64,000 nucleotides of DNA from an uncultured Ruminococcus sp. (GTDB lineage Bacteria > Bacillota > Clostridia > Oscillospirales > Acutalibacteraceae): assembly GCA_902765855.1 (NCBI GenBank), contig CACXBF010000002.1, forward strand, positions 62,001-126,000, given 5' to 3'. Positions within the stretch are counted from its first letter, which is position 1. Each line of letters begins with the position of its first letter. Shown here piece by piece: positions 237 to 63,470 of this stretch. The translations under genes were made by a program, and so were the position numbers. The notes under the pieces were generated by a model, which saw only the letters and a program-made list of their open reading frames with translations, was not told the origin of the DNA and searched no databases.

Positions 237-455
237 TTTCACAGCAATCGGCTTACCTTATCAATGTCGAAGTTTCGCAGTGCAAAACTGATTCCGCGTC
301 TTGTCTGCGGCGGCTCGCCGCAAAGTTTCGCTCGAACCTTTTCTACACCAGCTTTGCTGGTGAAATCTGTTCGCAGTGTTGAGGGACGGAGTCACTCATG
401 GGGTTTAAGGGTAACGCCCTTAAAATCTCTTACCCTCTAAGTGCGAACGAGGTTC
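237..455. repeat. Palindromic repeat cluster 1
   Basis: First instance of the modular repeat family. It contains a degenerate copy of the 'nnCGAnGTTTnGCnnGCAAAAC...CCGCGTCTTG' module, a GGCGGCTCGCCGC palindrome near 308-321, CCAGCTTTGCTGG near 349-361, a GAGGGACGGAGTCACTC module at 381-397, TAAGGGTAACGCCCTTA near 405-421 and GCGAACGAGGTTCGT near 441-455. The same modules recur in other orders through the window. It fills the gap before the permease gene. Confidence 0.85.
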
Positions 456-519
456 GTATTTTATATAAAATAAGTTTTATCTGTATTTTTTATTTAAAAA
501 TTTAAGGCGGTGTTATAAT

Positions 520-1329
520 TTGGGAATGATTTGGAATGACCATAAAGGTTTTGGAAAGCAAATCTTTATTCTTGCAAAAAATGAACTTATTAAAACTTAT
601 AAGGGTGCGGTAATCGGACCGCTTTGGGCAGTTGTTAAACCGGTATTTACATTGTTTGTTTATTGGTTTGCGTTTGCTATTGGTGTTCGCGGAGGTGCGG
701 CTCGTGACGAGCTTGGTAACGGAACTCCATACTTCATATTCCTTATGGTTGGATTTGTGCCGTGGTTCTTTATAAATGATGCAATTCTTATGGGTTCTAA
801 ATCAATTCGAACCAATAGTCAGTTTGTCACAAAGGTTTCGTTTCCTGTTTCCACAATAATGTCTTATGTCACTCTTTCAAGACTATTTGTACATTTCTTC
901 TTGTCTGTTTTGATGTATTTATATATGCTTCTTGCAGGAATACATCCGATGTGGTCTAATCTTGAATTTTTCTATTATTGTCCGCTGATGTTTATGTTCT
1001 TCTTGGCACTTTCGTGGTCTACGGCTCCGATGTGTGCGTTCAGCCGAGATTTTGAAAATATGATAGTTTCCTTTATGTCAGGTCTTTTCTGGCTTTCAGG
1101 AATTATCTACAATTCATATACGATAGAATACGACTGGCTTAGAAAGATAATGTACTTCAATCCTATTAACTATTTTGTAAACGGTTATAGAAAAGCCTTC
1201 CTTACAGGAGCACCGCTTTTCGATAATTCAACGGAAACAATTATATTCTTTGCAGAATTTGTAGTGATAGTATTCTTAGGAATCTTTAACTTTACAAGAC
1301 TAAGAAAGAGATTACCTGATGTACTGTAA
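520..1329 (+). CDS. ABC-2 type polysaccharide/teichoic acid export permease
   Basis: 269-residue integral membrane protein of the ABC-2 transporter permease family (TagG/RfbA/KpsM type), which exports lipid-linked polysaccharide or teichoic acid across the plasma membrane. An N-terminal amphipathic segment ending 'ELIKTYKGAVIGPLWAVVKP' is typical of the family, followed by about six hydrophobic segments. The start is a TTG with AAGGCGG at 504-510; the ATG at 526 is possible but worse spaced. No partner ATPase is visible here, so the TagH/RfbB-like subunit must lie upstream or elsewhere. Only 12 nt separate it from the next gene, so it is co-transcribed with the SDR and LicD genes, which fits a surface-polymer locus. 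Confidence 0.85.
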   Translation: MGMIWNDHKGFGKQIFILAKNELIKTYKGAVIGPLWAVVKPVFTLFVYWFAFAIGVRGGAARDELGNGTPYFIFLMVGFVPWFFINDAILMGSKSIRTNSQFVTKVSFPVSTIMSYVTLSRLFVHFFLSVLMYLYMLLAGIHPMWSNLEFFYYCPLMFMFFLALSWSTAPMCAFSRDFENMIVSFMSGLFWLSGIIYNSYTIEYDWLRKIMYFNPINYFVNGYRKAFLTGAPLFDNSTETIIFFAEFVVIVFLGIFNFTRLRKRLPDVL

Positions 1330-1341
1330 TGGAGATGTAGC

Positions 1342-2370: not shown

Positions 2371-2388
2371 AGAAGGGCGAATTGCTTA

Positions 2389-4251: not shown

Positions 4252-4254
4252 TGT

Positions 4255-4820
4255 AAGTTTGGTGAAACTTAAAAGTTTTGCGTGAGCCTTTGGTCGCTCT
4301 CCGCAGAAAGCGAAAAACTTTTGGGCGAAACTCAACATTTCATTGCTCTTTGAGCGGCGGATTTTATCCGCCGTTTTTTTGTTATCAACATTAGCCATTA
4401 AGGGCGAACTCTGTTTGCCTACTTGGTAGTATGTTAGCAACAGGGCGGACGAAATCCGCCCTTACAGGGGCAAGAGATGTTAAGGGCTTCGCCCTTAAGC
4501 GGCTCGCCGCAAATAAAGAAATTACCAATTAACTACCAAAGGATCTGCCGTAGGTGACTACCTTTGGAAACCGCAGGCCTTTAAAAAGGCTTGACATAAA
4601 CTTTAATTTTCTTAGAGAAGTGAATAAGCCAATCGTAGGGGCGAACTGAGTTCGCCCGCTCGGTAGTTTAGTCCTCTGCGTGGATAAACTTCCCTCACTC
4701 ACTACGAGCGAGGCAAAGCCGAGCGATTCCGCGTCTTGGGGGCGGAGGCACTCCGCCGCGTCTTGGGAGCGGAGGCACTCCGCTGCGCCTTGTCCTGTGC
4801 GGTCACGCACCGCCTTTTTA
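4255..4820. repeat. Palindromic repeat cluster 2
   Basis: Fills the 637-bp gap between the LicD fusion and the sipL-like gene. Modules in order: a degenerate ACTTAAAAGTTTTGCG end, CTCTCCGCAGAAAGCG, the CGGCGGAT/ATCCGCCG terminator module, GGGCGGACGAAATCCGCCC, TTAAGGGCTTCGCCCTTAA, CCAAAGG...CCTTTGG, GGCCTTTAAAAAGGCT, a right end (AACTTTAATTTTCTTAGAGAAGTG), GGGCGAACTGAGTTCGCCC, then inverted 'ACTACGAGCGAGGC...CGATTCCGCGTCTTGGG' with GGCGGAGGCACTCCGCC present twice in tandem. Confidence 0.9.
4355..4380 (+). terminator. Intrinsic terminator after the LicD operon (repeat module)
   Basis: Stem CGGCGGAT/ATCCGCCG (4355-4362 with 4366-4373), 3-nt loop, then seven T residues. This is the same module that appears elsewhere as 'GCGGTGGACnnnGTCCACCGC', here with a strong T tract, so this repeat module probably works as a rho-independent terminator. 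Confidence 0.8.
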
Positions 4821-6442: not shown

Positions 6443-7921
6443 ATGGAAGAGAGAAATATATACAGCGACATTGCACAGCGTACCAACGGCGATATTTATA
6501 TTGGCGTTGTAGGACCTGTCAGAACGGGTAAATCCACTTTTATCAAGCGTTTTATGGATACGCTCGTTATTCCGAATATCGAAAATGAGCAAACTCGTGG
6601 CAGGGCAACAGATGAACTTCCACAATCAGCGGCAGGCAGAACAATTATGACTACCGAGCCGAAGTTTATTCCTGAAGAGGCTGTCGAGGTTAATATTGGC
6701 GGAAACGCAACCTTTCGTGTAAGAATGATTGATTGCGTTGGGTATATCGTTCCGAGTGCGATAGGCTATATCGAGGACGAACAGCCACGAATGGTAAAAA
6801 CACCGTGGTTTGAGGAGGCTATTCCATTTAATATGGCTGCCGAAATCGGCACGAAAAAGGTTATTACAGACCATTCAACGATTGGTTTAGTGATTACAAC
6901 CGATGGCTCTATCAGCGATATTGAGCGTGGAGAGTATGAGGAAGCCGAGGAACGAGTTGTAAATGAGCTTAAAGAGATAAATAAGCCGTTTATTATGCTT
7001 CTTAACTCAATGTATCCGAATGCGGCAGAAACAAGAAATCTTGCGAAAATGCTTTCGGAAAAGTATAATGTTCCTGTTGAGCCTGTAAGTTGTCCTGAAC
7101 TTGATGAGGAGGAAATCAAGAGGATTCTTGCCCATGTACTTTTTGAATTTCCGATAAAGGAAATCAAGGTTGATATGCCGAAGTGGGTTACTTCTCTTGA
7201 AAAGGATCATTGGCTCAGAAGTTCTGTTTTCAAGTGCATACAGGATTCATCGAGAGAGGCAAAGCGTATTCGTCAGATTAAAGAAATAACCGACGGCATA
7301 CAGCAATGCGAATATGTAACATCTGCGGTCGCAACAGCCTTAGACCTTGGTACAGGTCACGCAAGAATGGAGGTAAGGCTCGCCCCTGAATTATTCTATA
7401 AGGTACTTGGAGAAAAGACAGGACTTGAGATTGAGGACGAGGGAGCATTGCTTGATACTCTTATGGAGCTTTCTGCAATGCGAGCGGATTTTGAGAAGGT
7501 TCGCAAGGCATACGAAGATGTAAACGAAACAGGCTACGGAATTGTTATGCCGACAATGGAAGAGCTTACCCTTGAAGAACCTGAAATCATCAAACAGGGC
7601 GGAAAGTATGGTATTCGTTTGAGAGCCTGCGCACCATCAGTGCATATGCTCAAGACAGAAATTAAGACGGAAATTACACCGATAGTCGGTTCGGAACAGC
7701 AATCTGAGGAGCTTGTGACATATCTGCTCAAAGAATTTGAGGAGGCCCCGTCAAAGATTTGGGAATCGAATATTTTTGGAAAATCTCTGCACGAGCTTGT
7801 CAACGAAGGTCTGCACAATAAGCTTTATCGTATGCCTGCCGACGCAAGAAATAAACTCAAGGAAACTATTGAACGCATTATCAATGAGGGCTGTAACGGT
7901 TTGATTTGCATTATACTTTGA
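6443..7921 (+). CDS. spoIVA: Stage IV sporulation protein A
   Basis: 492 residues, the normal SpoIVA length. This is the cytoskeleton-like ATPase that polymerises around the forespore as the basement layer of the spore coat. The N-terminus 'MEERNIYSDIAQRTNGDIYIG' region is highly conserved, and the Walker A motif GPVRTGKST spans residues 24-32. The C-terminus 'INEGCNGLICIIL' matches the conserved membrane-targeting end. RBS GGGGAGG lies 8 nt upstream. The stop codon TGA at 7919-7921 directly abuts a repeat cluster. Confidence 0.97.
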   Translation: MEERNIYSDIAQRTNGDIYIGVVGPVRTGKSTFIKRFMDTLVIPNIENEQTRGRATDELPQSAAGRTIMTTEPKFIPEEAVEVNIGGNATFRVRMIDCVGYIVPSAIGYIEDEQPRMVKTPWFEEAIPFNMAAEIGTKKVITDHSTIGLVITTDGSISDIERGEYEEAEERVVNELKEINKPFIMLLNSMYPNAAETRNLAKMLSEKYNVPVEPVSCPELDEEEIKRILAHVLFEFPIKEIKVDMPKWVTSLEKDHWLRSSVFKCIQDSSREAKRIRQIKEITDGIQQCEYVTSAVATALDLGTGHARMEVRLAPELFYKVLGEKTGLEIEDEGALLDTLMELSAMRADFEKVRKAYEDVNETGYGIVMPTMEELTLEEPEIIKQGGKYGIRLRACAPSVHMLKTEIKTEITPIVGSEQQSEELVTYLLKEFEEAPSKIWESNIFGKSLHELVNEGLHNKLYRMPADARNKLKETIERIINEGCNGLICIIL

Positions 7922-8215
7922 GCGGCGAGCCGCCGCACCCAAGACGCGGAATCGCTCGGCAAGCCTCGCTCGTAGTGGATTAGGGAAAATAGTTGCCGCG
8001 GTTTGGAAAACTACCGAGCGGGCGAACACAGTTCGCCCCTACGATTAGCTAACAGGTTTTCCCAAGACAATTAAAAGTTTTGCTCAAGCTTTTTCAAAAG
8101 CTTGCAGGGTCGAGGGACGGAGTCCCTCGTGGGGTTTTAAGGGCAACGCCCTTAACATCTCTTGCTCCTTAAATGGCGAACTTCGTCCGCCATTTTTAAA
8201 CTAATGTTGTCAACA
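7922..8215. repeat. Palindromic repeat cluster 3
   Basis: Begins at the base after the spoIVA stop codon. Order: GCGGCGAGCCGCCGC, module A (CCCAAGACGCGGAATCGCTCGG...CTCGCTCGTAGTG...CTACCGAGCGGGCGAACACAGTTCGCCCCTACG), the junction TTAGCTAA at 8045-8052, the left core end (CAAGACAATTAAAAGTTTTGC), AAGCTTTTTCAAAAGCTT, GAGGGACGGAGTCCCTC, TTAAGGGCAACGCCCTTAA, and a weak ATGGCG/CGCCAT hairpin with TTTTT at 8173-8197 that could terminate spoIVA transcription. Confidence 0.9.
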
Positions 8216-8361
8216 AAAGAAAAAACAGCAAATAAAATTCTATATTTGTTCTTTGTTATGACTTATAAGTTCATTTTGTATATAAAATACTAACTTGGTT
8301 ATTAAGCTTAGTTATAAATGCACGAAGTTCCAAAAATTCGACAAAAAATGCAAATTACCCC

Positions 8362-14454: not shown

Positions 14455-15010
14455 AGTGCGTGACCGCACAGGACAAGACGCGGGCGGAGTGCCTCCGCCG
14501 TCAAGACGCGGAGTCGGTTTTGCTCGCAAAACCTCGACATTAGTGAGATAAGTTTTTTGCCGCGGTCGAAGAAACTACCGAGCGAACACAGTTCGCCTCT
14601 ACGATTAGCTGGTACACTTATCTAAGACAATTAAAAGTTTTGCTCAAGCTTTTTCAAAAGCTTGCAGTTTCCAAAGGTAGTCCACCTACGTCGGAGCCTT
14701 TGGTGGGTTTTAAGGGCGAAGCCCTTAACATTCTTTACTTCATAAGGTCGGACTTTGTCCGCCCTTATTTACTAATGTTGCTGACAAAAAGAAATTTATC
14801 TCAAGGCACTTAAAGTTTAGGTCGGGCCTTTGGTAGTTCATTGATAATTTCTTTATTTGCGGCAATAAACCGCCCTTCCAGATGTCGGGGTTTTGCTTGC
14901 AAAAACCGATTACGCGACTTGGGGGCGGCGGCTTGCCGCTTAAGGGCAACGCCCTTAATATCTCTTAATCTAAATGGCGGACAAAGTCTGCCATTTTTTC
15001 TTTTGTAAAC
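14455..15010. repeat. Palindromic repeat cluster 4
   Basis: Starts just after the ADH stop codon with GTGCGTGACCGCAC, then module A fragments, GCGAACACAGTTCGC, a left core end (14617-14650, CTAAGACAATTAAAAGTTTTGC), AAGCTTTTTCAAAAGCTT, CCAAAGGTAGTCCACCTACG..CCTTTGG, TTAAGGGCGAAGCCCTTAA, then a second inverted set with 'TCGGGGTTTTGCTTGCAAAAACCGATT', GGCGGCGGCTTGCCGC, TTAAGGGCAACGCCCTTAA and a terminator hairpin at 14974. The following ~150 nt (15010-15145) is AT-rich with one degenerate module. Confidence 0.9.
14974..15000 (+). terminator. Intrinsic terminator (repeat module)
   Basis: ATGGCGGAC (14974-14982) pairs with GTCTGCCAT (14986-14994, one G-U pair) across an AAA loop, followed by TTTTTTC. 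Terminator version of the recurrent 'GGCGGACnnnGTCCGCC' repeat module, placed before the hprK promoter region. Confidence 0.65.
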
Positions 15011-18077: not shown

Positions 18078-18998
18078 ATGTCATTTTCTCAAGAGGTTAA
18101 GTCTGAGCTTGCTGGAGTGGAGTGCAAAACCATTTCCGAGATGAAGGCTCAGGCTTACGGAATGACTATTTTTTCAAAATTACAGCGTTCGGATAAGGTA
18201 CTTTTTGCAACAGAAAGTCCAACAGTTGCAAGAACATATTCTCAGCTTATGACGCTGATTACGGGCAGTATTTTTGATGTTAATATACCGCTGAACAGAA
18301 AATCTCTTAGAGATAAGCAGATTACTGTTACCTCACCGGATTTTCCAAGTAGAAATATTTTGCTTAAATTTTTCGGTCATAGCGGTGACGAACTTAGTCT
18401 GCATATAAATCGTGCGAACTTTGATTCAGAGGAAAGCTTTCCGTCATTTTTGAGGGGGGCTTTTTTATCATACGGAAATGTTACCGACCCACAAAAGGAT
18501 TATCATTTGGAATTTGTTTCACCTTTTCAGAATCTTGCAAAGGATTTATCTTATCTTATCGAGGAGATAGAACAATTAGCAGTAAAGCCCAAGATTATCA
18601 ATCGCAAGGGTAGTTTTATTGTCTATCTGAAAGACAGCGATGGCATATCCGACCTTCTTACTTTAATAGGTGCTCAGATGTCAGCCTTGCAAATTATTCA
18701 AGAAAAGATGCTTAAATCTGTAAGAAATACTGTTAATCGTAAAATAAATTCAGAAACGGCGAATAGCAATAAGACTGCAAAGGCTTCTGCAAAACAGCTT
18801 TTGGCTATTGATAAGATAAAGAAAAAGAGGGGTTTAGAATCCTTGCCGAATGATTTGTATGAGTTAGCAATTTTGAGGGTAGAAAATCCGGAAAGTAGCT
18901 TGAGGGAATTGGGTGAGATGTTAAGTCCGCCGATAAGCCGTTCTGGAGTTAATCATAGAATTGAGCGAATAATGGAATTAGCCGAAGAATTAGGATAG
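18078..18998 (+). CDS. whiA: DNA-binding protein WhiA
   Basis: 306 residues. WhiA combines an N-terminal LAGLIDADG-like homing-endonuclease fold without nuclease activity and a C-terminal helix-turn-helix; it affects cell division and chromosome segregation in Firmicutes. The C-terminal 'LANPESSLRELGEML'-type HTH ('VENPESSLRELGEML' here, then 'PPISRSGVNHRIERI') is unmistakable. Last gene of the hprK run; a repeat cluster begins at its stop codon. Confidence 0.96.
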   Translation: MSFSQEVKSELAGVECKTISEMKAQAYGMTIFSKLQRSDKVLFATESPTVARTYSQLMTLITGSIFDVNIPLNRKSLRDKQITVTSPDFPSRNILLKFFGHSGDELSLHINRANFDSEESFPSFLRGAFLSYGNVTDPQKDYHLEFVSPFQNLAKDLSYLIEEIEQLAVKPKIINRKGSFIVYLKDSDGISDLLTLIGAQMSALQIIQEKMLKSVRNTVNRKINSETANSNKTAKASAKQLLAIDKIKKKRGLESLPNDLYELAILRVENPESSLRELGEMLSPPISRSGVNHRIERIMELAEELG

Positions 18999-19465
18999 TG
19001 GAGTGCCTCCACCGTCAAGACGCGGAATCGCTCGGCAAGCCTCGCTCGTAGTGAATTAGGGAAGATAGTTGACGCGGTCGATGAAACTACCGATAAGTTA
19101 ACAGATTTCCCAAAGACAATTAAAAGTTTCGCTCGAGCCTTTTCAAAGGCTCGCAGGGTCGAGGGACGGAGTCCCTCGTGGGTTTTAAGGGCAACTCCCT
19201 TAACATTTCTTTCTTCTAAAGCGGTGGACGAAGTCCACCGCTAAATTCTCTCTCGTTAGTAACATTAGTCTTACAGGGAACCCCCTGCGAGGGTTCCCTA
19301 CGAAAAACATTCCACCGGAATGTTTTTCTACCCTCCTGCGCTTAGAGAAGTATAAAGAGTTTCGCTCTCTGCGGAGAGCGACCAAAGGCTCTGCTTTTGG
19401 AAACTGCGAGCCTTTAAAAAGGCTCGACCTAAACCTTAAGTGTCTTCTTAGGAGTTTATTAGCTA
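18999..19465. repeat. Palindromic repeat cluster 5
   Basis: Begins at the whiA stop: GTGGAGTGCCTCCAC, module A, left core end near 19092-19140, TTTTCAAAGGC, GAGGGACGGAGTCCCTC, TTAAGGGCAACTCCCTTAA, GCGGTGGACGAAGTCCACCGC, GGGAACCCCCTGCGAGGGTTCCC, AACATTCCACCGGAATGTT, TTCGCTCTCTGCGGAGAGCGA, CCAAAGGC..GCTTTTGG, GCCTTTAAAAAGGC and a right core end (19430-19462, TAAGTGTCTTCTTAGGAGTTTATTAGCT). One of the fullest copies. Closely matches cluster 11. Confidence 0.9.
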
Positions 19466-24348: not shown

Positions 24349-24591
24349 ATGAGATTGGATAAATATTTAAAAGTTTCAAGAATAATCAAACGCAGAACAG
24401 TTGCTAATGAGGCCTGTGACGCAGGCAGAGTTATAGTTAATGGCAAGCCGGCAAGAGCATCTTATGATGTAAAGGTTGGTGATATATTGGAAATAGCTCT
24501 TGGCACAAAGCCGATAAAAGCAGAGGTCGTCAGCATAAATGAATATGCCAAAAAAGAAGATGCCCCTTTGATGTATAAGATTTTAGAATAA
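24349..24591 (+). CDS. rqcP: S4-domain RNA-binding protein RqcP (YabO)
   Basis: 80 residues, a single S4 domain ('MRLDKYLKVSRIIKRRTVANEACDAG...VNGKPAR'). RqcP/YabO (Hsp15 family) works with RqcH on stalled 50S-nascent chain complexes during ribosome quality control. In Bacillus and clostridia it sits in the hup-rqcP-yabP-yabQ order, exactly as here, which supports the name. Stop codon abuts repeat cluster 6. Confidence 0.92.
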   Translation: MRLDKYLKVSRIIKRRTVANEACDAGRVIVNGKPARASYDVKVGDILEIALGTKPIKAEVVSINEYAKKEDAPLMYKILE

Positions 24592-24745
24592 GCGGCGGCG
24601 AGCCGCCGTCAAGACGCGGAATCGCTCGACAAGTCTCGCTCGTAGTGAGTTAGGGAAGATAGTTGACGCGGTCGGAAAATTTTCCAATGAGCTACCGTTT
24701 AGCTGATGAACTTATTTTAGACACTTAAAAGTTTATTAGCTAATT
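24592..24745. repeat. Palindromic repeat cluster 6 (short)
   Basis: Begins directly after the rqcP stop with GCGGCGGCGAGCCGCCG, then module A (TCAAGACGCGGAATCGCTCG...), GATAGTTGACGCGGTCGG, and a truncated left core end containing TTAGCTGATGAACTTATTTTAGACACTTAAAAGTTT without internal modules. It ends before the yabP leader. Confidence 0.85.
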
Positions 24746-26288: not shown

Positions 26289-26865
26289 TTAGCTAAAACA
26301 CTTCCTATAAGATGTTTAAAAGTTTCGCTTGAGCCTTTTCAAAGCGGCGAGCCGCCGCCCCCAAGATGCGGAATCGGTTTTGCAAGCAAAACCTCGACAT
26401 CTGCAAGGGCAGTTTATTGCCGCAGATAAAGTAATTACCAATGGAACTACCAAAGGCTCCGCCGTAGGTGACTACCTTTGGAAACTGTGAACTTTTAATT
26501 GTCTTAGATAAGTGCGTTAGCTAATCGTATGGGCGAACTGTGTTCGCTCATACGATTTCCTTTTGTCAGTGACATTAGTCATTAAGGGCGGACGAAGTCC
26601 GCCCTCAGGAGTAAAGAATGTTAAGGGCTTTGCCCTTAAGCGGCGAGCCGCCGCCCCCAAGATGCGTAATCGGTTTTGCAAGCAAAACCTCGACATCTGC
26701 AAGGGCGGTTTATTGTCGCGGATAAAGTAATTACCAATGGAACTACCAAAGGCTCCGCCGTAGGTGACTACCTTTGGAAACTGTGAGCTTTTAATTGTCT
26801 TAGATAAGTGCGTTAGCTAATCGTATGGGCGAACTGTGTCCGCCTGCATAGTAGATGACCCATCT
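26289..26865. repeat. Palindromic repeat cluster 7 with a tandem ~200-bp duplication
   Basis: Starts with TTAGCTAA (26289-26296) and a left core end. It then carries nearly the same ~200-bp block twice (26344-26545 and 26640-26841, 296-bp period): GCGGCGAGCCGCCGCC, CAAGATGCG...CGGTTTTGCAAGCAAAACC, CCAAAGGCTCCGCCGTAGGTG..CCTTTGG, right core end with TTAGCTAA and GGGCGAACTGTGT.CGC. GGGCGGACGAAGTCCGCCC and TTAAGGGCTTTGCCCTTAA lie between the two copies. Fills the 647-bp gap before yunB. Confidence 0.9.
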
Positions 26866-35712: not shown

Positions 35713-35721
35713 AAATCCACG

Positions 35722-36220
35722 GTAAGTTTACGCACTTCCCCAAGAAACTTAAAAGTTTCGCTCGAGCCTTTTTAAAGGCTCGCAGTTTCCAAAGGCAGAG
35801 CCTTTGGTCGCTCTCCGCAGAGAGCGAAAAACTTTTGGGCGAAGCCCAACACTTGTTTTTTCTTAGGCGAACGCAGTTCGCCTTTATTGACTAATGTTGC
35901 TTACGGAAAAAATTAAGCGGTGGACGAAGTCCACCGCTTTGGAAGCAAAGAAATGTTAAGGGCTTCGCCCTTAACACCCACCAAAGGCTCTGCCTTTGGA
36001 AACCGCAAGCTTTTGAAAAAGCTTAAGCAAAACTTTTAATTGTCTTAGAAAAATTTATTAGCTAATCGGTAGTTTCCCCGACCGCGTCAACAAACTTCCA
36101 TTGTGAATGTCGAGGTTTTGCTTGCAAAACCGATTCCGCGTCTTGACAGCGGAGGAACTCTGCCTTGAGCAAAACTAATTGTCTTAGGAAACTTTTAAGT
36201 TTCGAAGATAAGTGCATAAG
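35722..36220. repeat. Palindromic repeat cluster 9 (recA leader)
   Basis: Left core end (35737-35768, CCCCAAGAAACTTAAAAGTTTCGCTCGAGCC), GCCTTTTTAAAGGC, CCAAAGGCAGAGCCTTTGG, CGCTCTCCGCAGAGAGCG, TTTTGGGCGAAGCCCAAC, GGCGAACGCAGTTCGCC, GCGGTGGACGAAGTCCACCGC, TTAAGGGCTTCGCCCTTAA, AAGCTTTTGAAAAAGCTT, right core end (36028-36066, ending TTAGCTAATC), inverted module A, and a second short right end (36170-36218). Lies between a good promoter and recA. Confidence 0.9.
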
Positions 36221-42955: not shown

Positions 42956-43595
42956 TTGTTAGCGGCGGAGCGCCTCCGCCCCCAAGACGCGGCGGAGTGC
43001 CTCCGCAGTCAAGACGCGGAATCGGTTTTGCAAGCAAAACCTCGACATTCGCAATGGAAGTTTGTTGCCGCGGTCGAAGAAATTCCCAATTAACTGCCGA
43101 TTAGCTAATGCACTATCCTAAGACACTTAAAAGTTTTGCTCAAGCTTTTTCAAAAGCTTGCAGGGTTGAGGGACGGAGTCCCTCATAGGTGTTAAGGGCA
43201 ACGCCCTTAACATTTCTTTGATTCCAAAGCGGTGGACTTTGTCCACCGCTTTTTTCTCTATTGTTAGCAATATTAGTCTTACAGGGAACCCCCTGCGAGG
43301 GTTCCCTACGAAAAACATTCCACTGGAATGTTTTTCTACCCTCCTGCGCTTTGAGGAGCATAAAGTGTTTCGCTCTCTGCGGAGAGCGACCAAAGGCTCT
43401 GCCTTTGGAAACTGCGAGCCTTTTAATTGTCTTTTAGAAGGTTAGTTAGTTAATCGGCAGTTTAGTTCTCCGCGTGGATAAACTTCTTAAACTAACTACG
43501 AGCGAGACTTGTCGAGCGATTCCGCGTCTTGGGGGCGGCGGCTCGCCGCCTCGAGCGAAACTTTTGATTGTCTTAGAGCAAGTGCGTTAGATAAA
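42956..43595. repeat. Palindromic repeat cluster 11
   Basis: Just after the MORN stop: GGCGGAGCGCCTCCGCC, GGCGGAGTGCCTCCGC, module with CGGTTTTGCAAGCAAAACC, left core end (43095-43140), AAGCTTTTTCAAAAGCTT, GAGGGACGGAGTCCCTC, TTAAGGGCAACGCCCTTAA, terminator module at 43229, GGGAACCCCCTGCGAGGGTTCCC, AACATTCCACTGGAATGTT, TTCGCTCTCTGCGGAGAGCGA, CCAAAGGCTCTGCCTTTGG, right core end, inverted module A, GGCGGCGGCTCGCCGCC and a second right end (43552-43580). The middle closely matches cluster 5. Confidence 0.9.
43229..43255 (+). terminator. Intrinsic terminator (repeat module)
   Basis: GCGGTGGAC (43229-43237) and GTCCACCGC (43241-43249) form a perfect 9-bp stem with a TTT loop and are followed by six T residues. 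The strongest terminator form of this recurrent module. Confidence 0.8.
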
Positions 43596-46414: not shown

Positions 46415-47135
46415 CCGCTTAGCTAATGCACTTGCGCTAAGACACTTAAAAGTTTCGCTCGAGGCGGCGTGCCGCCGCTGTCAAGACGCGGAATCGCTCG
46501 GTAAACCTCGCTCGTAGTGGGTATGTGAAGTTTACTCACACGGAGAACTAAACTCCCGTTTAGCTAACATACTTATCTTAGATAATTAAAAGTTTTGCTC
46601 AAGCTTTTTCAAAAGCTTGCAGTTTCCAAAGGTAGTCCTTTGGTCGCCGTCCGCAGACGGCGAAAAACTGTTGGGCGAAGCCCAACATTCTTTTGCCCCC
46701 TAAGGGGCGAACAATGTTCGCCCCTTAAATTCTTTTGTTAGCAACATTAGTAAAAAGTGCGGACAAAGTCCGCACTTAGAGAGCAAAGAATGTTAAGGGC
46801 TTCGCCCTTAAAACCCACGAGGGACTCCGTCCCTCGACCCTGCAAGCCTTTAAAAAGGCTTGACCTAAATTTTAAGAGTCTTTAGGAAATCTGTTAGTTA
46901 ATCGGAAGTTAATTGGTAATTTCTTAGACCGCGTCAACAAACTTCCATTGCGAATGTCGAGGTTTTGCTTGCAAAACCGATTCCGCGTCTTGACTGCGGC
47001 GGCTCGCCGCTTAAGGGCTTCGCCCTTAAAACCCACGAGGGACCCCGTCCCTCGACCCTGCAAGCCTTTAAAAAGGCTCGAGCGAAACTTTTGAGTGTCT
47101 TGGGGAAGTTTGATTAGCTAATAATAATTGATAAC
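46415..47135. repeat. Palindromic repeat cluster 12 (between ruvA and ruvB)
   Basis: Longest cluster. Left core end with TTAGCTAA (46419-46463), GGCGGCGTGCCGCC, module A, a second left end (46556-46606), AAGCTTTTTCAAAAGCTT, CCAAAGG..CCTTTGG, CGCCGTCCGCAGACGGCG, TTGGGCGAAGCCCAA, GGGGCGAACAATGTTCGCCCC, GTGCGGACAAAGTCCGCAC, TTAAGGGCTTCGCCCTTAA, GAGGGACTCCGTCCCTC, GCCTTTAAAAAGGC, right end, inverted module with GGTTTTGCTTGCAAAACC, a repeated TTAAGGGCTTCGCCCTTAA/GAGGGACCCCGTCCCTC pair, and a final right end with TTAGCTAA (47076-47130). Confidence 0.9.
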
Positions 47136-48646: not shown

Positions 48647-49999
48647 ATGGGCAGATTATTTGGTACAGACGGTGCAAGAGGTGTAGCAAACTCAGAACTT
48701 ACCTGTGAGCTTGCAATGAATATCGGTAAGGCGGCAGCAATGGTTCTGACAGACAGTAAGGATAAGCACCCGAAAATCCTCATAGGAAAGGATACAAGAA
48801 TTTCTTCTGATATGCTCGAAAATGCCCTTGTCGCAGGACTTTGCTCAGTCGGAGCAGATGTTATATTGCTTGGCGTTGTTCCTACGCCAGCGGTTGCATA
48901 TCTTGTAAGAAAGTATAATGCCGATGCAGGAATTATGATTTCAGCATCACACAATCCTTTTGAATTTAACGGAATTAAGATTTTCAGTGGAAGTGGCTAT
49001 AAACTTCCTGACGCTTTAGAAAACGAAATAGAGGCTATCGTACTTGACAGAAGTGAGCCTTATCCTTGCCCAACACACGACGGTATAGGCTCTGTTACCT
49101 GTTCTGAAAAAGGTGCTGAGGATTATATCGAGCATATAAAGTCCACAATTTCCGATTCTCTTTCTGGTATGAAAATTGCATTTGATTGCTCGAATGGTTC
49201 AGCGTCAAGAACAGCGAAAAAGCTTTTCACAGATTTAGGCATAGATTGCGTTATGCTCAATGATACCCCAGACGGCAAGAACATAAACGATAAGTGCGGT
49301 TCAACTCATATGGAAAAGCTCGCTGAGTATGTAAAAACTCATAACGACATTGATGCAGGTATTGCGTTTGATGGTGATGCCGATAGATGCCTTGCAGTTG
49401 ATGAAAACGGCGAAATTCTTGACGGCGATTTTATTATGACAATCTGTGCAATGGATATGCGTTCAAGAGGTACTCTTGCAAAAGAAACTATGGTCGGAAC
49501 AGTTATGGCAAATATGGGCGTAAACCGTTTCTGTGCAGATAATAATATTGGTTTTGTCGCAACAAGTGTTGGCGATAGATATGTTCTTGAGGAAATGCTC
49601 GCAAAAGGCTATAATCTCGGCGGAGAACAATCAGGTCATGTTATATTCCTCGATTACGGTACAACTGGTGATGGTCAGCTTACTGCGGCACAGCTTTTGA
49701 GCATTGTAAACCGCAGAAATGCAAAGCTTTCAAATGTTCGTCATGTTATGAAGAAGTATCCACAGGTACTTATAAATATTAAGGTTTCACCTGAGGGCAG
49801 GGCAAAATTTGCCACAGATTCAGATATTGCAGAGAAGATAGACAGCGTTAAGAATATTCTTGGTGAGAGCGGAAGAATACTTGTAAGAGTTTCTGGTACA
49901 GAACCGCTCGTAAGAGTTATGCTTGAGGGCGAATCTGAGGAGCAAATCCAAAAGCTTGCCCAAGAAACAGCCGACCTTATCAAAAAACGCCTTAGCTAA
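48647..49999 (+). CDS. glmM: Phosphoglucosamine mutase
   Basis: 450 residues. Converts GlcN-6-P to GlcN-1-P for UDP-GlcNAc and cell-wall synthesis. 'LFGTDGARGVANSE', the active serine loop 'MISASHNPFEFNG' (phosphoserine Ser101), the metal loop 'FDGDADRCLAVDE' and the sugar-binding 'GGEQSGHVIF' all match GlmM. The stop codon TAA is the last three bases of a TTAGCTAA (49992-49999) that begins repeat cluster 13. Confidence 0.96.
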   Translation: MGRLFGTDGARGVANSELTCELAMNIGKAAAMVLTDSKDKHPKILIGKDTRISSDMLENALVAGLCSVGADVILLGVVPTPAVAYLVRKYNADAGIMISASHNPFEFNGIKIFSGSGYKLPDALENEIEAIVLDRSEPYPCPTHDGIGSVTCSEKGAEDYIEHIKSTISDSLSGMKIAFDCSNGSASRTAKKLFTDLGIDCVMLNDTPDGKNINDKCGSTHMEKLAEYVKTHNDIDAGIAFDGDADRCLAVDENGEILDGDFIMTICAMDMRSRGTLAKETMVGTVMANMGVNRFCADNNIGFVATSVGDRYVLEEMLAKGYNLGGEQSGHVIFLDYGTTGDGQLTAAQLLSIVNRRNAKLSNVRHVMKKYPQVLINIKVSPEGRAKFATDSDIAEKIDSVKNILGESGRILVRVSGTEPLVRVMLEGESEEQIQKLAQETADLIKKRLS

Positions 50000-50380
50000 G
50001 GAATTTTCCCCAAGACACTTAAAAGTTTCGCTCGAGCCTTTTTAAAGGCTCGCAGTTTCCAAAGGTAGTCACCTACGGCAGAGCCTTTGGTCGCTCTCCG
50101 CAGAGAGCGAAACACTTTATACTTCTCTAAGCGCAGGAGGGTAGAAAAACATCTCGCAGGGGGTTCCCTGTAGAACTAATGTTGCTGACAAGAGAAATTT
50201 AAGCGGTGGACAAAGTCCACCGCTTTAGGAGCAAAAAATGTTAAGGGCGTTGCCCTTAAGCGGCGAGCCGCCGCACCCAAGATGCGAAATCGGTTTTGCA
50301 AGCAAAACCTCGACATTCGTAAGGAAATTTTATTCACGCGGCGGAAGTAACTACCGAATACACTTCCCCAATATGGAGGT
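49992..50380. repeat. Palindromic repeat cluster 13
   Basis: TTAGCTAA overlaps the last codons of glmM. Then left core end (50005-50040), GCCTTTTTAAAGGC, CCAAAGGTAGTCACCTACGG..CCTTTGG, CGCTCTCCGCAGAGAGCG, a truncated GGGTTCCCTG piece, GCGGTGGACAAAGTCCACCGC, TTAAGGGCGTTGCCCTTAA, GCGGCGAGCCGCCGC and CGGTTTTGCAAGCAAAACC, ending in a module-A fragment (TTATTCACGCGGCGGAAG) just before the methyltransferase RBS. No clear right core end, so probably truncated. Confidence 0.88.
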
Positions 50381-52972: not shown

Positions 52973-53781
52973 GTGATATTACGATAGGACAATATGTAGA
53001 GGGCAGGTCGCTTATACACCGCCTTGATGTAAGGGTGAAGCTGATTCTTATGCTTTGCGGTATAACCTTTGTATTTGTAGCCGGAAATTACTTTTCAATG
53101 GCACTTATAACAGCTTTTACGATTTTTATAATGCTACTTACGGGCATAAGTCTTTTCAAATATATAAAAAGCATAAAAGCCGTTATTGTTATAGTTCTTT
53201 TCACAGCAATTCTGAATCTTTTTTATGGCAGTGGAGAACCGATATTCAAATGGGGCTTTATGGAGATAACTAAGGCAGGCATAAATAATGCTGTCTTTGT
53301 TGCTGCAAGAGTCATACTTGTAGTGCTTATGAGTGGAGTTCTTACCTTTACGACCTCTCCGACAGACCTCACAGACGGTTTGGAAAGAATAATGAAACCG
53401 CTGAAAATCTTCCATATAAAAATACACGAAATCGCTATGATGATGTCTATTGCACTGCGATTTATACCTACTCTTTTTGATGAATTCAATAAGATAAGCA
53501 ATGCACAGAAATCAAGGGGTGCTGACCTTGAGAGCGGTAACTTTATTGCAAGGATTAAGGCTTTTGTTCCTATACTTATTCCGCTTTTTATATCGTCATT
53601 CCGCAGAGCAAACGATCTTGCTACTGCTATGGAGTGCCGTTGCTATAACGGCGGTGACGGCAGAACACGAATGAAGGTTCTGAAAATAAAGCCGAGAGAT
53701 ATTATCGCATTAAGCGTTTCAGTATTAGTATTTGTTGGGGTGATACTTTGCAATGTATTCCTACCATCTCCAGTGAGATGA
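52969..53781 (+). CDS. ecfT: ECF transporter transmembrane component EcfT
   Basis: 270 residues with several transmembrane helices. 'IHRLDVRVKLILM' near the N-terminus and the coupling-helix motifs 'AQKSRGADLES' and 'RRANDLATAMECRCYNGG' (the Ala-Arg-Gly type contacts) identify EcfT, the scaffold between the ATPases and the S component. Overlaps ecfA2 and truA by 4 nt each, giving a tightly coupled operon. Confidence 0.94.
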   Translation: MSDITIGQYVEGRSLIHRLDVRVKLILMLCGITFVFVAGNYFSMALITAFTIFIMLLTGISLFKYIKSIKAVIVIVLFTAILNLFYGSGEPIFKWGFMEITKAGINNAVFVAARVILVVLMSGVLTFTTSPTDLTDGLERIMKPLKIFHIKIHEIAMMMSIALRFIPTLFDEFNKISNAQKSRGADLESGNFIARIKAFVPILIPLFISSFRRANDLATAMECRCYNGGDGRTRMKVLKIKPRDIIALSVSVLVFVGVILCNVFLPSPVR

Positions 53782-54575
53782 AGAATATTCTTGTTTCAAT
53801 TTCATATGACGGCAGTGCCTTTCATGGTTGGCAAATCCAGAAAAACGCTGTCACTGTTCAAGAGGAATTTCAGAAAGCTTTATATAAGGTTATCGGAGAG
53901 CGTGTCGATATAAAAGGCTCAAGTCGTACAGATTCAGGCGTTCACGCATATGAATATTGTATAAGCTTTAAGACTACACATTCTATTCCGCCAGAAAGGC
54001 TTGTAGCCGCACTTAATACCTATCTTCCAAAGACCATAGCCGCTAAAAAGGCTTGTTATGTTCCGGAAGATTTTCACGCACGATATTCCTCACTTGGTAA
54101 GGAGTATGTCTATAAGATATATAATGCGAAAATTCGTGACCCGTTTCTTGAGGGCTACGCCTTGCATTATTGGTATCCGCTCGATGAAAAGGTTCTTGAT
54201 AAGGCGGCAAAGGATTTTATCGGCTATCACGATTTCACATCTTTCTGTACGCTCGATTCAAGAGAAATCGGAGATTTTCGCCGTACAGTGCGTAATGCGT
54301 CAGTAACTCGTGACGGCGATATGGTATATTTTACAGTAGAGGCTGACGGCTTTCTGTATAATATGGTTCGCATAATGGTAGGTACTCTCTTGCGAATAGC
54401 ACAGGGTAAATTTCCGCCTGATAGCATACCGGAAATCATACAAGCAAAAGACCGTCACAAAGCTGGTCCTACCGCACCGCCGGAGGGCTTGTATCTTAAT
54501 CATGTAATATATGAAGCTGTGCGTGACCGCACAGGACAAGACGCTGTGCGTGACCGCACAGGACAAGACGCGTAA
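53778..54575 (+). CDS. truA: tRNA pseudouridine synthase A with repeat-encoded C-terminal extension
   Basis: 265 residues. Makes pseudouridine 38-40 in tRNA anticodon stems. 'ISYDGSAFHGWQIQ', catalytic Asp in 'GSSRTDSGVHA', 'FTVEADGFLYNMVRIMVGTLL' and 'PPEGLYLNHVIYE' are family landmarks. ATG at 53778 overlaps the ecfT stop (ATGA). After 'LNHVIYE', where TruA normally ends, the protein continues with two copies of AVRDRTGQD plus Ala, encoded by a tandem 27-bp segment of the intergenic repeat (GTGCGTGACCGCAC...). The tail is probably a non-functional readthrough into the repeat. Confidence 0.93.
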   Translation: MKNILVSISYDGSAFHGWQIQKNAVTVQEEFQKALYKVIGERVDIKGSSRTDSGVHAYEYCISFKTTHSIPPERLVAALNTYLPKTIAAKKACYVPEDFHARYSSLGKEYVYKIYNAKIRDPFLEGYALHYWYPLDEKVLDKAAKDFIGYHDFTSFCTLDSREIGDFRRTVRNASVTRDGDMVYFTVEADGFLYNMVRIMVGTLLRIAQGKFPPDSIPEIIQAKDRHKAGPTAPPEGLYLNHVIYEAVRDRTGQDAVRDRTGQDA

Positions 54576-55062
54576 TCGCTCGGCAAGCCTCGCTCGTAGT
54601 GAATTAGGAAAGATAGTTGACGCGATCGAGGAAATTCCCAATGGACTACCGATAAGTTAACAGATTTCCCTAAAACAATTAAAAGTTTTCTACATCAGCT
54701 TTGCTGGTGAAATCTGCTCGCAGGGTCGAGGGACGGAGTCCGCCCTTAGGGACTAATGTTGCTGACAAAAGAAATTTATCGACGGATAAAATTCGCCGAT
54801 TAGAAAAAAGAAATGTTGGGCAAAGCCCAAAGGTGTTTCGCTCTCTGCGGAGAGCGACCAAAGGCTCTGCCGTAGGTGACTACTTTTGGAAACCGCAAGC
54901 CTTTAAAAAGGCTTGACCTAAACTTTGAGTGTCTTAGAAAAGTGAATTAGCTAATCGGTAGTTCATTGGTAATTACTTTATCCGCGTCAATAAACTGCCC
55001 TTGTAGATGTCGAGTGAGGCTTGCCGAACGATTCCGCGTCTTGGGGGCGGAGGCACTCCGCC
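54519..55062. repeat. Palindromic repeat cluster 14 (overlaps the truA 3' end)
   Basis: A duplicated 27-bp GTGCGTGACCGCAC/CAGGACAAGAC unit inside truA, then module A (CGTAATCGCTCGGCAAGCC...), left core end (54657-54690), CATCAGCTTTGCTGGTG, GAGGGACGGAGTCC, a degenerate GACGGATAAAATTCGCC, TTGGGCAAAGCCCAA, TTCGCTCTCTGCGGAGAGCGA, CCAAAGG..CTTTTGG, right core end with TTAGCTAATCGG (54949-54960) and inverted module A ending CGTCTTGGGGGCGGAGGCACTCCGCC. The final CC(TTGACT) runs into the cysS -35 box. Confidence 0.9.
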
Positions 55063-55091
55063 TTGACTTTTGAAATTCGATGGTATATAAT
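55063..55091 (+). promoter_or_regulatory. Sigma-A promoter of the cysS T-box operon
   Basis: TTGACT (55063-55068), 17-nt spacer, TATAAT (55086-55091). The -35 box abuts the end of repeat cluster 14. Predicted start near 55098. Confidence 0.82.
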
Positions 55092-57199: not shown

Positions 57200-57601
57200 T
57201 TATTTTTTAAGATACTTTAAGCTAACCAACTTCCCAAAGACACTTAAAAGTTTTGCTCAAGGCGGCTCGCCGCACCCAAGACACGGAATCGGTTTTGCAA
57301 GCAAAACCTCGACATTTGCAATGGAAGTTTGTTGGCGCGGTCGAAGAAATTACCAATTAACTACCGATAGGGCGGACTCCGTCCCTCAACCCTGCGAGCA
57401 GCTTTCACCAGAAAAGCTGGTGTAGAAAAGGTTCGAGCGAAACTTTTAGTTGTCTTAAAAAAGTGCGTTAGCTAATCGTAGGGGCGAACTGTGTTCGCCC
57501 GCTCGGTAGTTTCCTCGACCGCGTCAACTATCTTCCTTAATTCACTACGAGCGAGACTTGTCGAGCGATTCCGCGTCTTGACAGCGGAGGCACTTCGTCT
57601 T
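57193..57601. repeat. Palindromic repeat cluster 15 with clear inverted ends
   Basis: A compact core copy: left end 57221-57264 (AGCTAACCAACTT...AAGACACTTAAAAGTTTTGCTCAAG), GGCGGCTCGCCGC, CGGTTTTGCAAGCAAAACC, a GGCGGACTCCGTCCCTC hybrid, CACCAGAAAAGCTGGTG, and right end 57432-57477 (TTCGAGCGAAACTTTTAGTTGTCTTAAAAAAGTG..TTAGCTAATC). The ends are imperfect inverted repeats of ~43 bp, defining a ~257-bp unit. An inverted module A (GGGGCGAACTGTGTTCGCCC to CGTCTTGACAGCGG) is attached outside the right end. Confidence 0.9.
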
Positions 57602-57609
57602 TACAAAGT

Positions 57610-61477: not shown

Positions 61478-61540
61478 CGGCGGCTCGCCGCCTTGAACAA
61501 AACTTTTATCTGTCTTAGGGGAAGTTCATTAGCTAATTAA
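61478..61540. repeat. Palindromic repeat cluster 16 between convergent genes
   Basis: Minimal copy: GGCGGCTCGCCGCC straight after the plus-strand stop, then a right core end (TTGAACAAAACTTTTATCTGTCTTAGGGGAAGTTCATTAGCTAA). TTAGCTAA (61529-61536) contains the TAG stop of the minus-strand GHL10 gene. The only separator between two convergent genes. Confidence 0.85.
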
Positions 61541-62807
61541 ACATCGCAATGGCATTCTTGACTTCGGTTGCGGTCTGGTCAGTGAAAAGATATTCGTATG
61601 AATAGAGCATAAAGCCATCACAATTTATACTCCTGCCATAAAGAATTTGATTTTTCAGAATTTCGTCAGATTCAAGCCATGTTCCGCTATCGCTGTCAGA
61701 GCCAGCCTTGTATACCGCCAAACCAATATAGAATTTTACACCTTTATTGCTGATTATCTTTCGCCATTCATCAGCAGATTTCTTAAAAGGCAAATATGGG
61801 TGTGTATTGCTGACATAAATTTGCGGACAGATATAGTCTACAAAGCCTGAAATACTGCCCCAAGACTTTATATCGGCAGAAATTTTCTCGTCATTTTCTG
61901 TGTTGCACTGCGGAGAAATTCCGAACACAACATCGTCTTTTATTTCGTGAATAGCCGTATATACACCCGAAATAAGTGCATTTATATTCGCCTTACGCCA
62001 TTCTGAATGTGTAAGCGGAGAATAATTCTCGTCAACTGTTGCAAGATATGCTTTATAATCAACTTCATCGCATTTCATATCGCTTTCGGGATAGAAATAA
62101 TCGTCAAAGTGTATGCCGTCTACTGCGTAATTCTCTACGACCTCACGAACACCATTTATAATCAGCTCTCTAACTTCGCTATATGCGGGATTATAGTAAA
62201 TATTCTTTTCGCTTTGAAAGGTATATCGGTCATTTTCTTCGTTATCATCGTTTTGCCAAATGGTATAGGGATTATCTGAGGATAGGGCAGAGGGTGTCTT
62301 TGAAAAGCGTATTCTTAGGGGATTTATCCACGCATGAACCTTGATATTCTTTTTGTGTGAGGCATCTATGATATATTTAAGAGGGTCATAGTTTGGGTTC
62401 TTGCCCTGTGTTCCGCTGATAATATCCGACCACGGAAAATACTTTGATGGATAGAGCGAATCGCCATTCGGGCGAATATGAATTATAATCGTATTGAGCT
62501 TATTTTTTGTGCAGTTTTCGAGAATATCGTCTATACGCTGATGAAAAGCCTTTTCACTTCGGTCTGTACCGCTCATATTCAGCGACATATACGGAATCCA
62601 TACGGCACGCATTTCTTCATCGGTATTTTCTTTGATTACAGCCGTTTCTATGGCTTTAACGGCAGTTTTTGACTCAGTAATACTATTTTCGCCGGTTTCG
62701 TTTATGGAAGGTTTTATGGAAGGGAAAATCATAGAAAGCACCACCGCAGAAATCATCAGAAATACAGAAATAAAAGCAGGAATCAGATTTATAAGATTTT
62801 TTTTCAT
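61533..62807 (-). CDS. Family 10-like glycosyl hydrolase (GHL10/DUF187)
   Basis: 424 residues on the minus strand. An N-terminal membrane anchor or uncleaved signal (residues ~4-30), then a TIM-barrel-like domain with 'EEMRAVWIPYMSLN', 'VHAWINPLR', 'AVDGIHFDDYFYP' (acidic pair) and 'YICPQIYVSN', all typical of the GHL10/FenI-like family (PF02638). Substrate unknown; probably acts on cell-surface glycans. Start ATG 62807 chosen with AAGGTG upstream; a GTG at 62816 lies inside that RBS. Its stop codon TAG falls in TTAGCTAA of the repeat. Confidence 0.88.
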   Translation of the reverse strand: MKKNLINLIPAFISVFLMISAVVLSMIFPSIKPSINETGENSITESKTAVKAIETAVIKENTDEEMRAVWIPYMSLNMSGTDRSEKAFHQRIDDILENCTKNKLNTIIIHIRPNGDSLYPSKYFPWSDIISGTQGKNPNYDPLKYIIDASHKKNIKVHAWINPLRIRFSKTPSALSSDNPYTIWQNDDNEENDRYTFQSEKNIYYNPAYSEVRELIINGVREVVENYAVDGIHFDDYFYPESDMKCDEVDYKAYLATVDENYSPLTHSEWRKANINALISGVYTAIHEIKDDVVFGISPQCNTENDEKISADIKSWGSISGFVDYICPQIYVSNTHPYLPFKKSADEWRKIISNKGVKFYIGLAVYKAGSDSDSGTWLESDEILKNQILYGRSINCDGFMLYSYEYLFTDQTATEVKNAIAMFN

Positions 62808-62883
62808 TTGCCACACACCTTGATTTTTATTTATTATAATTATATAATTATTTCAAGTAAATAATTCTAAGGGTTGTGAAAAA

Positions 62884-63156
62884 GTGGAATGGATTTTAAT
62901 TGCATATTTTGTAATTATAAATATTCTGGCGGTTTATGCGACAATTCACGATAAAAAGAGTGCCATAAAGCATAAATGGAGAGTACCCGAAAGCACGCTC
63001 CTGATATTAGCTGCAATGAGTGGTTGTGTTGTGATGTATATAACTATGCGTATAATTCACCACAAGACCAAAAAGCTCAAATTTATGCTTGGCATACCGG
63101 TGATTTTTGTACTTGAAGTTCTGGCAGTTTTTTGCGTGAAAGTACTTATTAGCTAA
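62884..63156 (+). CDS. DUF1294 family small membrane protein
   Basis: 90 residues with three hydrophobic segments. 'DKKSAIKHKWRVPESTLLILAAMSG' and 'RIIHHKTKKLKFMLGIPVI' are the DUF1294 pattern. Function unknown. GTG start; divergent from the GHL10 gene. The last codons ATT AGC TAA are part of a repeat terminus (TTAGCTAA at 63149-63156), so the native C-terminus may have been altered by the repeat. Confidence 0.85.
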   Translation: MEWILIAYFVIINILAVYATIHDKKSAIKHKWRVPESTLLILAAMSGCVVMYITMRIIHHKTKKLKFMLGIPVIFVLEVLAVFCVKVLIS

Positions 63157-63470
63157 CAGATTTTCTAAAGACAATTAAAAGTTTCGCTTGAGCCTTTTTA
63201 AAGGCTCACAGTTTCCAAAGGTAGTCACCTACGGCAGAGCCTTTGGTCGCTCTCCGCAGAGAGCGAAACACTTTATACTTCTCTAAGCGCAGGAGGGTAG
63301 AAAAACAAGGGCGTTGCCCTTAAGCGGTGAGCCGCCGCCCCCAAGACGCGGAATCGCTCGGCTTTGCCTCGCTCGTAGTGAATTAGTGAAGATAGTTGAC
63401 GCGGTCGGAGAAACTACCGAGCAGGCGAACTGTACTTTTAGATGTCTTAGATAAGTTAGTAAACTAAATT
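63149..63470. repeat. Palindromic repeat cluster 17
   Basis: TTAGCTAA overlaps the DUF1294 stop codon. Left core end (63157-63192), GCCTTTTTAAAGGC, CCAAAGGTAGTCACCTACGG..CCTTTGG, CGCTCTCCGCAGAGAGCG, GCGCAGGAGGGTAGAAAAAC, GGGCGTTGCCC, GCGGTGAGCCGCCGCC, module A, GCAGGCGAACTG and a right end (CTTTTAGATGTCTTAGATAAGTTAGTAAACTAA) running up to the deoD RBS. Confidence 0.9.

Follow-up and report, generated by a model that had tools for sequence, protein, structure and literature searches.

Intergenic repeat clusters in a sister species of Pseudoruminococcus massiliensis are probably copies of a shared mobile element built of perfect DNA hairpins

The 64,000-nucleotide stretch of DNA analysed here (the window) represents bases 62001-126000 of contig C2 in a 2.39 Mb draft genome, and it carries many clusters of palindromic repeats. 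These clusters probably represent a widely shared mobile element that is non-autonomous and composed of five perfect DNA hairpins, and whose copies are arranged in part as head-to-head pairs. More specifically, we take the window repeats to be a shuffled, partly head-to-head form of a hairpin element which in relatives inserts at terminator hairpins and duplicates them. Self-comparison of the window yields 14 merged clusters that span 222 to 63430 and total 6,104 bp, in agreement with a first-pass annotation that had counted about 17 clusters and 6.7 kb under different merging rules and whose listed palindromes are present.

The source genome (G000) is that of a sister species of Pseudoruminococcus massiliensis. 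The DnaE-type protein encoded in the window is 97% identical to its homologue in P. massiliensis Marseille-P3876, and the stretches that align with G001, taken as the genome of that strain, mostly show 92-96% nucleotide identity, with one stretch at 86%. Gene names used herein are based on Pfam or on the sequence itself. The repeat family is found genome-wide rather than being confined to the window, since one 461-bp query gives 141 BLAST matches within the same genome, many of them short pieces. Coverage by repeats is about 4.4% over contig C2 and the first 300 kb of contig C1.

A five-hairpin core common to many genera

Among the modules is an element of fixed order that the first-pass annotation missed. 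It is a single stretch of about 165 bp (window 19273-19444) that recurs in other genera and consists of five hairpins, HP1 to HP5, in the same order and with covarying stems. Most copies retain several of the loops, the AAACTTTT tail and linkers such as CCTCCTGCGC, while the stems vary on both sides. Some copies from the order deviate in loops, linkers or tail, for example L236 and L240. In the window genus, the tail terminates near TTAGCTAA. There are 16 matches to the core model in the window at E <= 0.01, and eight of them form four overlapping head-to-head pairs that share their first hairpin. This arrangement accounts for the onion-like order and the imperfect inverted ends (TAAGACAATTAAAAGTTTYGCTCRAG) previously described, which are real and correspond to the two tails of head-to-head core copies.

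A covariance model (R1) built on 24 rows matches 77 of 300 genomes of the family, representing 46 of 135 genera, in multiple copies that are mostly full-length. Matches are also present in 69 of 394 genomes of the order and in 20 of 391 genomes of the class. These three samples overlap and the source genome is among them; strict filters were applied, and no more than 7-9 candidates were scored per genome. Presence is patchy even within a genus, as G217 and G287 match the model and their congeners G116 and G594 do not; G600, G621 and G656 of that genus also count as carriers. A blastn search with one 481-bp cluster gave no match among 50,697 phage records or among 72,556 plasmid records.

Several individual loci are worth recording. 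L219 (G192) and L232 (G363) are listed in different families, yet they carry an identical element with identical flanks, which makes a misassigned or misbinned contig possible in one of the two assemblies. At L093 (G022, about 1470-1900), the last hairpin of the core and the tail are repeated as a tandem array of short units. A core match around 9522-9686 of L077, in a metagenome-assembled genome labelled Anaerotruncus, is bounded by other inverted ends (AGAGCCTGTTTAAA and GAACAGGCTCT), and one core may thus be carried by different ends. An apparent correlation between a linker and HP4 in G013, noticed by eye, was dropped since few haplotypes lie behind it.

Pairing is maintained at the DNA level

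Stem pairing was assessed with an alignment of 52 core copies (A3, 51 of them distinct), which was fitted to the model and leans towards it. Two-sided change is seen in 33 of 38 pairs, and the individual cells comprise 349 with two-sided changes, 9 with one-sided standard changes and 36 that are unpaired. Four of five covariation measures exceed all 500 shuffles. In a count of pair types restricted to 49 of the 52 rows, from which three partial or weak matches were dropped, the core stems contain 1794 Watson-Crick pairs, 9 G.T, 13 A.C and 18 others.

An RNA stem is expected to tolerate G.U, and not A.C, on the transcribed strand. No such asymmetry is evident in the repeats. The 209 near-palindromes of the source genome and G001 hold 71 G.T and 69 A.C pairs, or 40 and 38 when oriented by transcription. 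A further count, from which 8 of 62 rows with another module order were dropped, gives 57 G.T and 37 A.C with HP2 included, which is misaligned for G013, and 33 and 34 without HP2. Transfer RNAs used as a control show 22 G.T and no A.C (14 ARAGORN records, duplicates kept; Fisher p = 2e-5), although this control is soft because ARAGORN scoring itself disfavours A.C. Stems that are almost purely Watson-Crick, with G.T no commoner than A.C, point to a DNA hairpin, and pairing is thus kept at the DNA level. When the window was compared with Rfam at the gathering score, only a T-box at 55130 passed and no repeat matched; a low-threshold scan of one cluster returned three matches far below gathering.

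Units are flush between duplicated terminator-like hairpins in another genus

Insertion is best observed in genus g113, represented by two species (G217 and G287). There a complete unit measures about 258 bp, the ends CAGYCTGTCGATAAAC and TCAGCGTGTAGAAAAAG enclosing the core, and units bounded by these terminal inverted repeats (TIRs) span about 258-390 bp. Most of the 20 units chosen in G217 stand at the head of a longer match list; places L292-L294 were read by eye or stand outside the test, and L294 is without a long repeat. An exact direct repeat of at least 12 bp flanks 16 of the 20 units, versus 2 of 400 swapped flanks. With mismatches allowed, 19 of the 20 directly abut a 19-35 bp sequence that is present on both sides (at 0-1 nt on the left), L269 being the exception.

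The duplicated copy is itself a hairpin, with a script-scored stem of at least 5 in 18 of the 20 units and a hairpin recognised by eye at L264. Repeat length tracks the span of this hairpin (r = 0.87, n = 18). As for terminators, and scored without a control, 19 of 20 units have on one side the end of an open frame of 80 or more codons at a distance of no more than 120 bp, and a T-rich run follows the right copy in 18. Similarly, among 11 units of G287 with both ends, out of 17 regions fetched, 10 are flush between hairpin copies that were judged by eye, with L278 as the exception. Each of these units is therefore bordered directly, on both sides, by copies of a single terminator-like hairpin. 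In two G287 units (L275 and L289), the first hairpin of the unit is interrupted by one additional hairpin cassette or two tandem ones, and this brings their length to about 320-390 bp.

A broader sample of 48 elements from many genera, one duplicate having been dropped, includes flank repeats of at least 12 bp in 9 elements versus 2 of 200 swapped flanks. By eye, whole terminator-like hairpins are duplicated at L208, L210, L211, L213, L218 and L230, and a REP-like (repetitive extragenic palindromic) hairpin at L234.

The agreement in length between the duplication and its target hairpin points to cleavage of the strands at both bases of an extruded hairpin. We infer that a trans-acting enzyme would recognise an extruded hairpin or cruciform and would cut both strands at its two bases, and that repair of such a wide stagger would copy the hairpin. 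As hairpins are also what the element consists of, its copies and their hairpins might also act as targets and as recombination points. Perhaps self-targeting, combined with recombination between inverted copies, gave rise to the nested, inverted and swapped cassettes that distinguish the sister species of the window genus. There is one direct hint of self-targeting: at L263 (G217), the duplicated hairpin belongs by eye to the element's own HP1 class.

Genomic placement and shuffling in the window genus

A sample of 148 clusters, drawn from about 1.19 Mb of the source genome and G001, contains 12.7 perfect hairpins (arm of at least 7) per kb, compared with 0.90 per kb in repeat-free control stretches, a 14-fold difference. 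Seventeen stem classes take in 671 of the 719 hairpins, and the loops are mostly 3 or 4 bases. Few cluster bases (4,272 of 56,443) fall inside called open reading frames (ORFs). The clusters occur preferentially in convergent gaps and close to the 3' ends of genes: 36 are in convergent gaps (there being 82 gaps of this kind), 96 in co-directional gaps (359) and 16 in divergent gaps (96), and the median distance is 29 bp to gene ends versus 89 bp to gene starts.

The first-pass proposal would have fallen had orthologous regions of related strains shown one unchanged sequence, and the comparison of the sister species does not refute it. The P. massiliensis gaps often keep the site and not the content, which is swapped, inverted or duplicated. 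Repeats occur in both genomes in 27 orthologous gaps, and in 10 of these the best match over 60 bp or more is an inverted one, a result that may reflect the head-to-head symmetry of the unit as well as true inversion. There are 5 gaps with repeats in the source genome only, 4 with repeats in G001 only and 14 with repeats in neither. This tally overstates rearrangement because gaps between high-scoring segment pairs (HSPs) fall by design where alignments break, and therefore the clusters contained in HSPs were counted instead. Among 41 source-genome clusters with orthologous sequence, 40 are not within one HSP of at least 700 bp, and the sole contained cluster looks, by its flanks, like repeated coding sequence. 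The proposal of recombining modules therefore holds, and the view of a non-autonomous family whose hairpin modules swap like cassettes is borne out.

The clearest inversion is in the gap before dnaE (18997..19465), where 259 bp at 84.6% identity are inverted in P. massiliensis between conserved flanks. Two G217 units resemble this case, namely L292 with an internal inversion and L294 with an internal deletion. Repeats are near 8 of 14 synteny breaks, counted without a control. Local alignments stop precisely at a hairpin base in 10.7% of cases, versus 2.8% at random.

The search for a mobilising enzyme

No transposase was seen in the window, where the Pfam scan covered 10 ORFs. The first-pass annotation had proposed looking for a RAYT-like (REP-associated tyrosine transposase) or other enzyme that co-occurs with the family, and the distribution of the RAYT domain, Y1_Tnp (PF01797), speaks against a RAYT. 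PF01797 is present in 15 of 40 relatives in all, including the carriers G000 and G019, and is lacking in 6 of the 8 carriers among those 40 (G001, G002, G010, G011, G013 and G022). Mobilisation by a RAYT was rejected on this distribution; G217 and G287 were not searched for the domain. The source genome has one intact IS200-like Y1 transposase gene (L099, contig C19), whose flanks, read by eye, are without family repeats, as well as a broken copy and a fragment elsewhere.

Two further enzyme families were considered. PF13751, which we take to be the IS1182/IS1272-type domain, is above cut-off in 3 of 13 carriers (G001, G231 and G278) and in 2 of 12 non-carriers, with no match in G000, G013, G019, G142, G152, G172, G217, G287 or G314. 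The reverse transcriptase domain PF00078 is present in 5 of 13 carriers and 2 of 12 non-carriers, with none in G000, G001, G013, G172, G205, G217, G287 or G314. Judged by these domains, neither IS1182-type enzymes nor reverse transcriptases (group II intron, retron or diversity-generating retroelement) are common to the carriers. A longer element with the same TIRs was not found in 20 regions out of 89 TIR places listed, in draft genomes where several of the places are at contig ends.

Comparison with known systems

The published systems are compared here as they appear in excerpts of the cited papers. In the inverted-repeat-replacing transposition of IS1272, the target hairpin is replaced without target duplication (PMC5678879). 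The likeness lies in the target, an inverted repeat and potential stem-loop of variable sequence and size, and in its location, as two of three new IS1272 insertions are just downstream of genes (PMC5678879). In contrast, the hairpin stands on both sides of the units described here, which are 258-390 bp long, and PF13751 was not found in G217 or G287.

REPs and bacterial interspersed mosaic elements (BIMEs) are likewise short palindromes of high copy number in mosaic clusters, mainly downstream of genes, and GTAG/CGTC-tagged REPs have frequent G.T pairs, a terminal tag and, for GTAG, an association with RAYTs (PMC3733652). 'Firmicutes' is absent as a word from the text of that paper (PMC3733652). 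Unlike a single 20-40 bp GTAG/CGTC-tagged palindrome, the core is a five-hairpin unit in fixed order, with no G.T excess and no common Y1 transposase. BOX, RUP and SPRITE are also small interspersed families of structured repeats in a Firmicute and are thought to be parasitic, but they are almost confined to Streptococcus pneumoniae and S. mitis, with BOX relatives in S. suis (PMC3049150), whereas the present family is spread across an order. For merger and shuffling, the nearest analogue is the GC clusters of yeast mitochondria, a palindromic mobile DNA that merges and shuffles and for which a putative target duplication is mentioned (PMC4478555). Those clusters differ in being organellar, with a 42-nucleotide unit (GC42), and in the excerpts they are without five-hairpin order or terminator targeting (PMC4478555).

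Miniature inverted-repeat transposable elements (MITEs) share terminal inverted repeats and short copies with the family, and differ in that the duplication in G217 is 19-35 bp and matches a hairpin instead of having a fixed short length. We take the repeats to work like a MITE with hairpin target choice. They differ in defining features from REP/RAYT systems, from IS1272-type replacement and from a normal MITE with a fixed short duplication. The suggestion that the family is BIME- or MITE-like thus stands in part: it is MITE-like in spirit, given the TIRs and the target duplications in a related genus, and the BIME/RAYT half fails on the distribution of PF01797 and the lack of frequent G.T pairs. 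Among the matches listed in a search of the open-licence literature, judged by titles and the starts of abstracts, none concerns such repeats in these bacteria or the duplication of terminator hairpins; this is weak evidence.

Weighing the alternatives

Several observations weigh against an element that moves by insertion at hairpins. No hairpin duplication is seen around the 148 window-genus clusters, where a flank repeat of at least 11 bp occurs in 2 (control 1 of 600), one apparently being repeated coding sequence and the other a 13-bp AT-rich stretch. Ten presence/absence locus pairs in the window genus are ragged, and none has a clean target duplication. Because the window genus shows no duplication, the mechanics of insertion are carried over from another genus, and insertions in the window genus are either old and shuffled, or else the genus uses recombination only. 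No empty site was seen at high identity, and the closest approach to one (L245 of G656) is diverged. In the many-genera sample, 39 of 48 elements lack an exact flank repeat of at least 12 bp, and two of the nine that have one (L221 and L228) do not, by eye, involve terminator hairpins. No tested enzyme family is common to the carriers tested. The fifth covariation measure, the number of pair types, did not beat the shuffles, 40 of 500 being as high, or 497 of 500 in another run. Finally, the enrichment of alignment ends at hairpin bases becomes modest (6.0% versus 2.8%) once each position is counted singly.

Some of these points would fit a family that no longer transposes, in which old copies exchange sequence at hairpins by RecA-type recombination and by template switching during replication, and the mosaic has no other source. 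Such switching inside a hairpin would perfect the stems and would explain why two-sided changes so outnumber the one-sided standard and unpaired cells; the tandem array of roughly 218-bp units and the inversions in P. massiliensis, the repeats near synteny breaks and the want of clean target duplications in the window genus are also in keeping with it. We nevertheless consider this explanation rather unlikely, as it would not easily account for the flush hairpin duplications on either side of 29 units of another genus, or for the conservation of loops and linkers in the majority of copies from different genera. A MITE of the classical kind, with an ordinary DDE insertion sequence as a parent that was lost or escaped sampling, would supply the TIRs, the short TIR-bounded copies and the target duplications of G217 and G287. 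It too seems unlikely, for it does not predict a duplication equal to one hairpin, and neither PF13751 in those two genomes nor a longer TIR-bounded copy in the 20 regions came to light.

The remaining two explanations are much less probable. IS200/IS605 movement is not known to yield a target duplication, which counts against REP/BIME-like elements moved by a RAYT (a Y1 HUH transposase), as do the six repeat-matching genomes without Y1_Tnp, the repeat-free flanks of the Y1 gene in the source genome and the stems without G.T excess. We judge a RAYT very unlikely even though palindromes, mosaic clusters, 3'-end placement and one intact Y1_Tnp gene would all suit it, together with a CGTAG tag that adjoins some accessory GGGCGAAC hairpins and was noticed without being counted. 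A multicopy structured non-coding or cis-regulatory RNA family could have conserved loops, covarying stems and proximity to gene 3' ends. Such a family is, however, highly improbable given the Rfam results, the equal standing of G.T and A.C, the patchy presence and the flank duplications.

The hairpin element that is moved in trans is consequently the reading we retain. It may even represent a new class of mobile DNA, that is, an order-wide, non-autonomous perfect-hairpin element that targets terminator hairpins, leaves hairpin-spanning duplications and nests into itself to build combinatorial intergenic cassettes. We advance this broader proposal only tentatively.

Features of the window

The clusters are listed in Table 1. 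The genes on either side of the 18997..19465 cluster are presumably whiA-like and dnaE-like.

Table 1. Repeat clusters of the window and its best core copy
Feature	Position	Strand	Content
Repeat cluster	222..440	.	Partial modules (A-type end, TTAAGGG-class hairpin); orthologous P. massiliensis gap without detected repeat
Repeat cluster	4287..4778	.	Core matches 4253-4374(-), 4440-4605(+)
Repeat cluster	7918..8222	.	Module A, then core half; core match 8073-8256(-)
Repeat cluster	14474..14995	.	Core match 14633-14758(-)
Repeat cluster	18997..19465	.	Between whiA-like and dnaE-like genes; head-to-head core pair 19122-19301(-), 19273-19438(+)
Best five-hairpin core copy	19273..19444	+	HP1 to HP5 plus tail; 187.8 bits; one of the 24 rows of model R1
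Short repeat cluster	24589..24734	.	Module A and tail; P. massiliensis version longer, rearranged
Repeat cluster	26289..26854	.	206-bp direct repeat, 97% (26342-26547, 26638-26843)
Repeat cluster	35719..36187	.	Head-to-head core pair 35751-35885(-), 35863-36037(+)
Repeat cluster	42983..43594	.	Head-to-head core pair 43129-43309(-), 43281-43457(+); close to one end of an inversion relative to P. massiliensis
Repeat cluster	46419..47130	.	Head-to-head core pair 46588-46728(-), 46700-46874(+); further core 46912-47092(+); three tandem ~218-bp units in P. massiliensis
Repeat cluster	49992..50367	.	Core match 50021-50171(-)
Repeat cluster	54530..55069	.	Core match 54761-54927(+); module A enters 3' end of upstream ORF
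Repeat cluster	57220..57604	.	Module A and tail; without core match at E <= 0.01
Repeat cluster	63140..63430	.	Core match 63177-63338(-)

Between window positions 43553 and 60510, the aligned pieces have in G001 the inverted orientation compared with the pieces around them, and a repeat cluster is located at the left breakpoint. The part from 54.5 to 59.1 kb, which includes the gene for cysteinyl-tRNA synthetase, has no match of at least 500 bp in the G001 stretch that was compared. A T-box leader (RF00230, 55130-55337) lies ahead of this gene, about 60 bp past a repeat cluster. Upstream, an ORF with a PseudoU_synth_1 domain (53748-54575) terminates within a duplicated A-module hairpin (54519-54575), at which point the G001 alignment breaks. 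Its C-terminal residues are thus supplied by the repeat.

Implications

In practical terms, the repeats interrupt alignments between sister species and occupy many gene 3' ends. Their stems are a clean natural system in which to ask how palindromes stay perfect, whether through selection on the DNA hairpin or through hairpin-templated correction during replication. If our reading is right, cutting at the two bases of an extruded hairpin is a testable way of target choice. Many intergenic stretches of gut bacteria of the Oscillospirales type would then belong to one mobile family, whose movement would tie together transcription terminators, the recognition of DNA hairpins and the shuffling of genomes.

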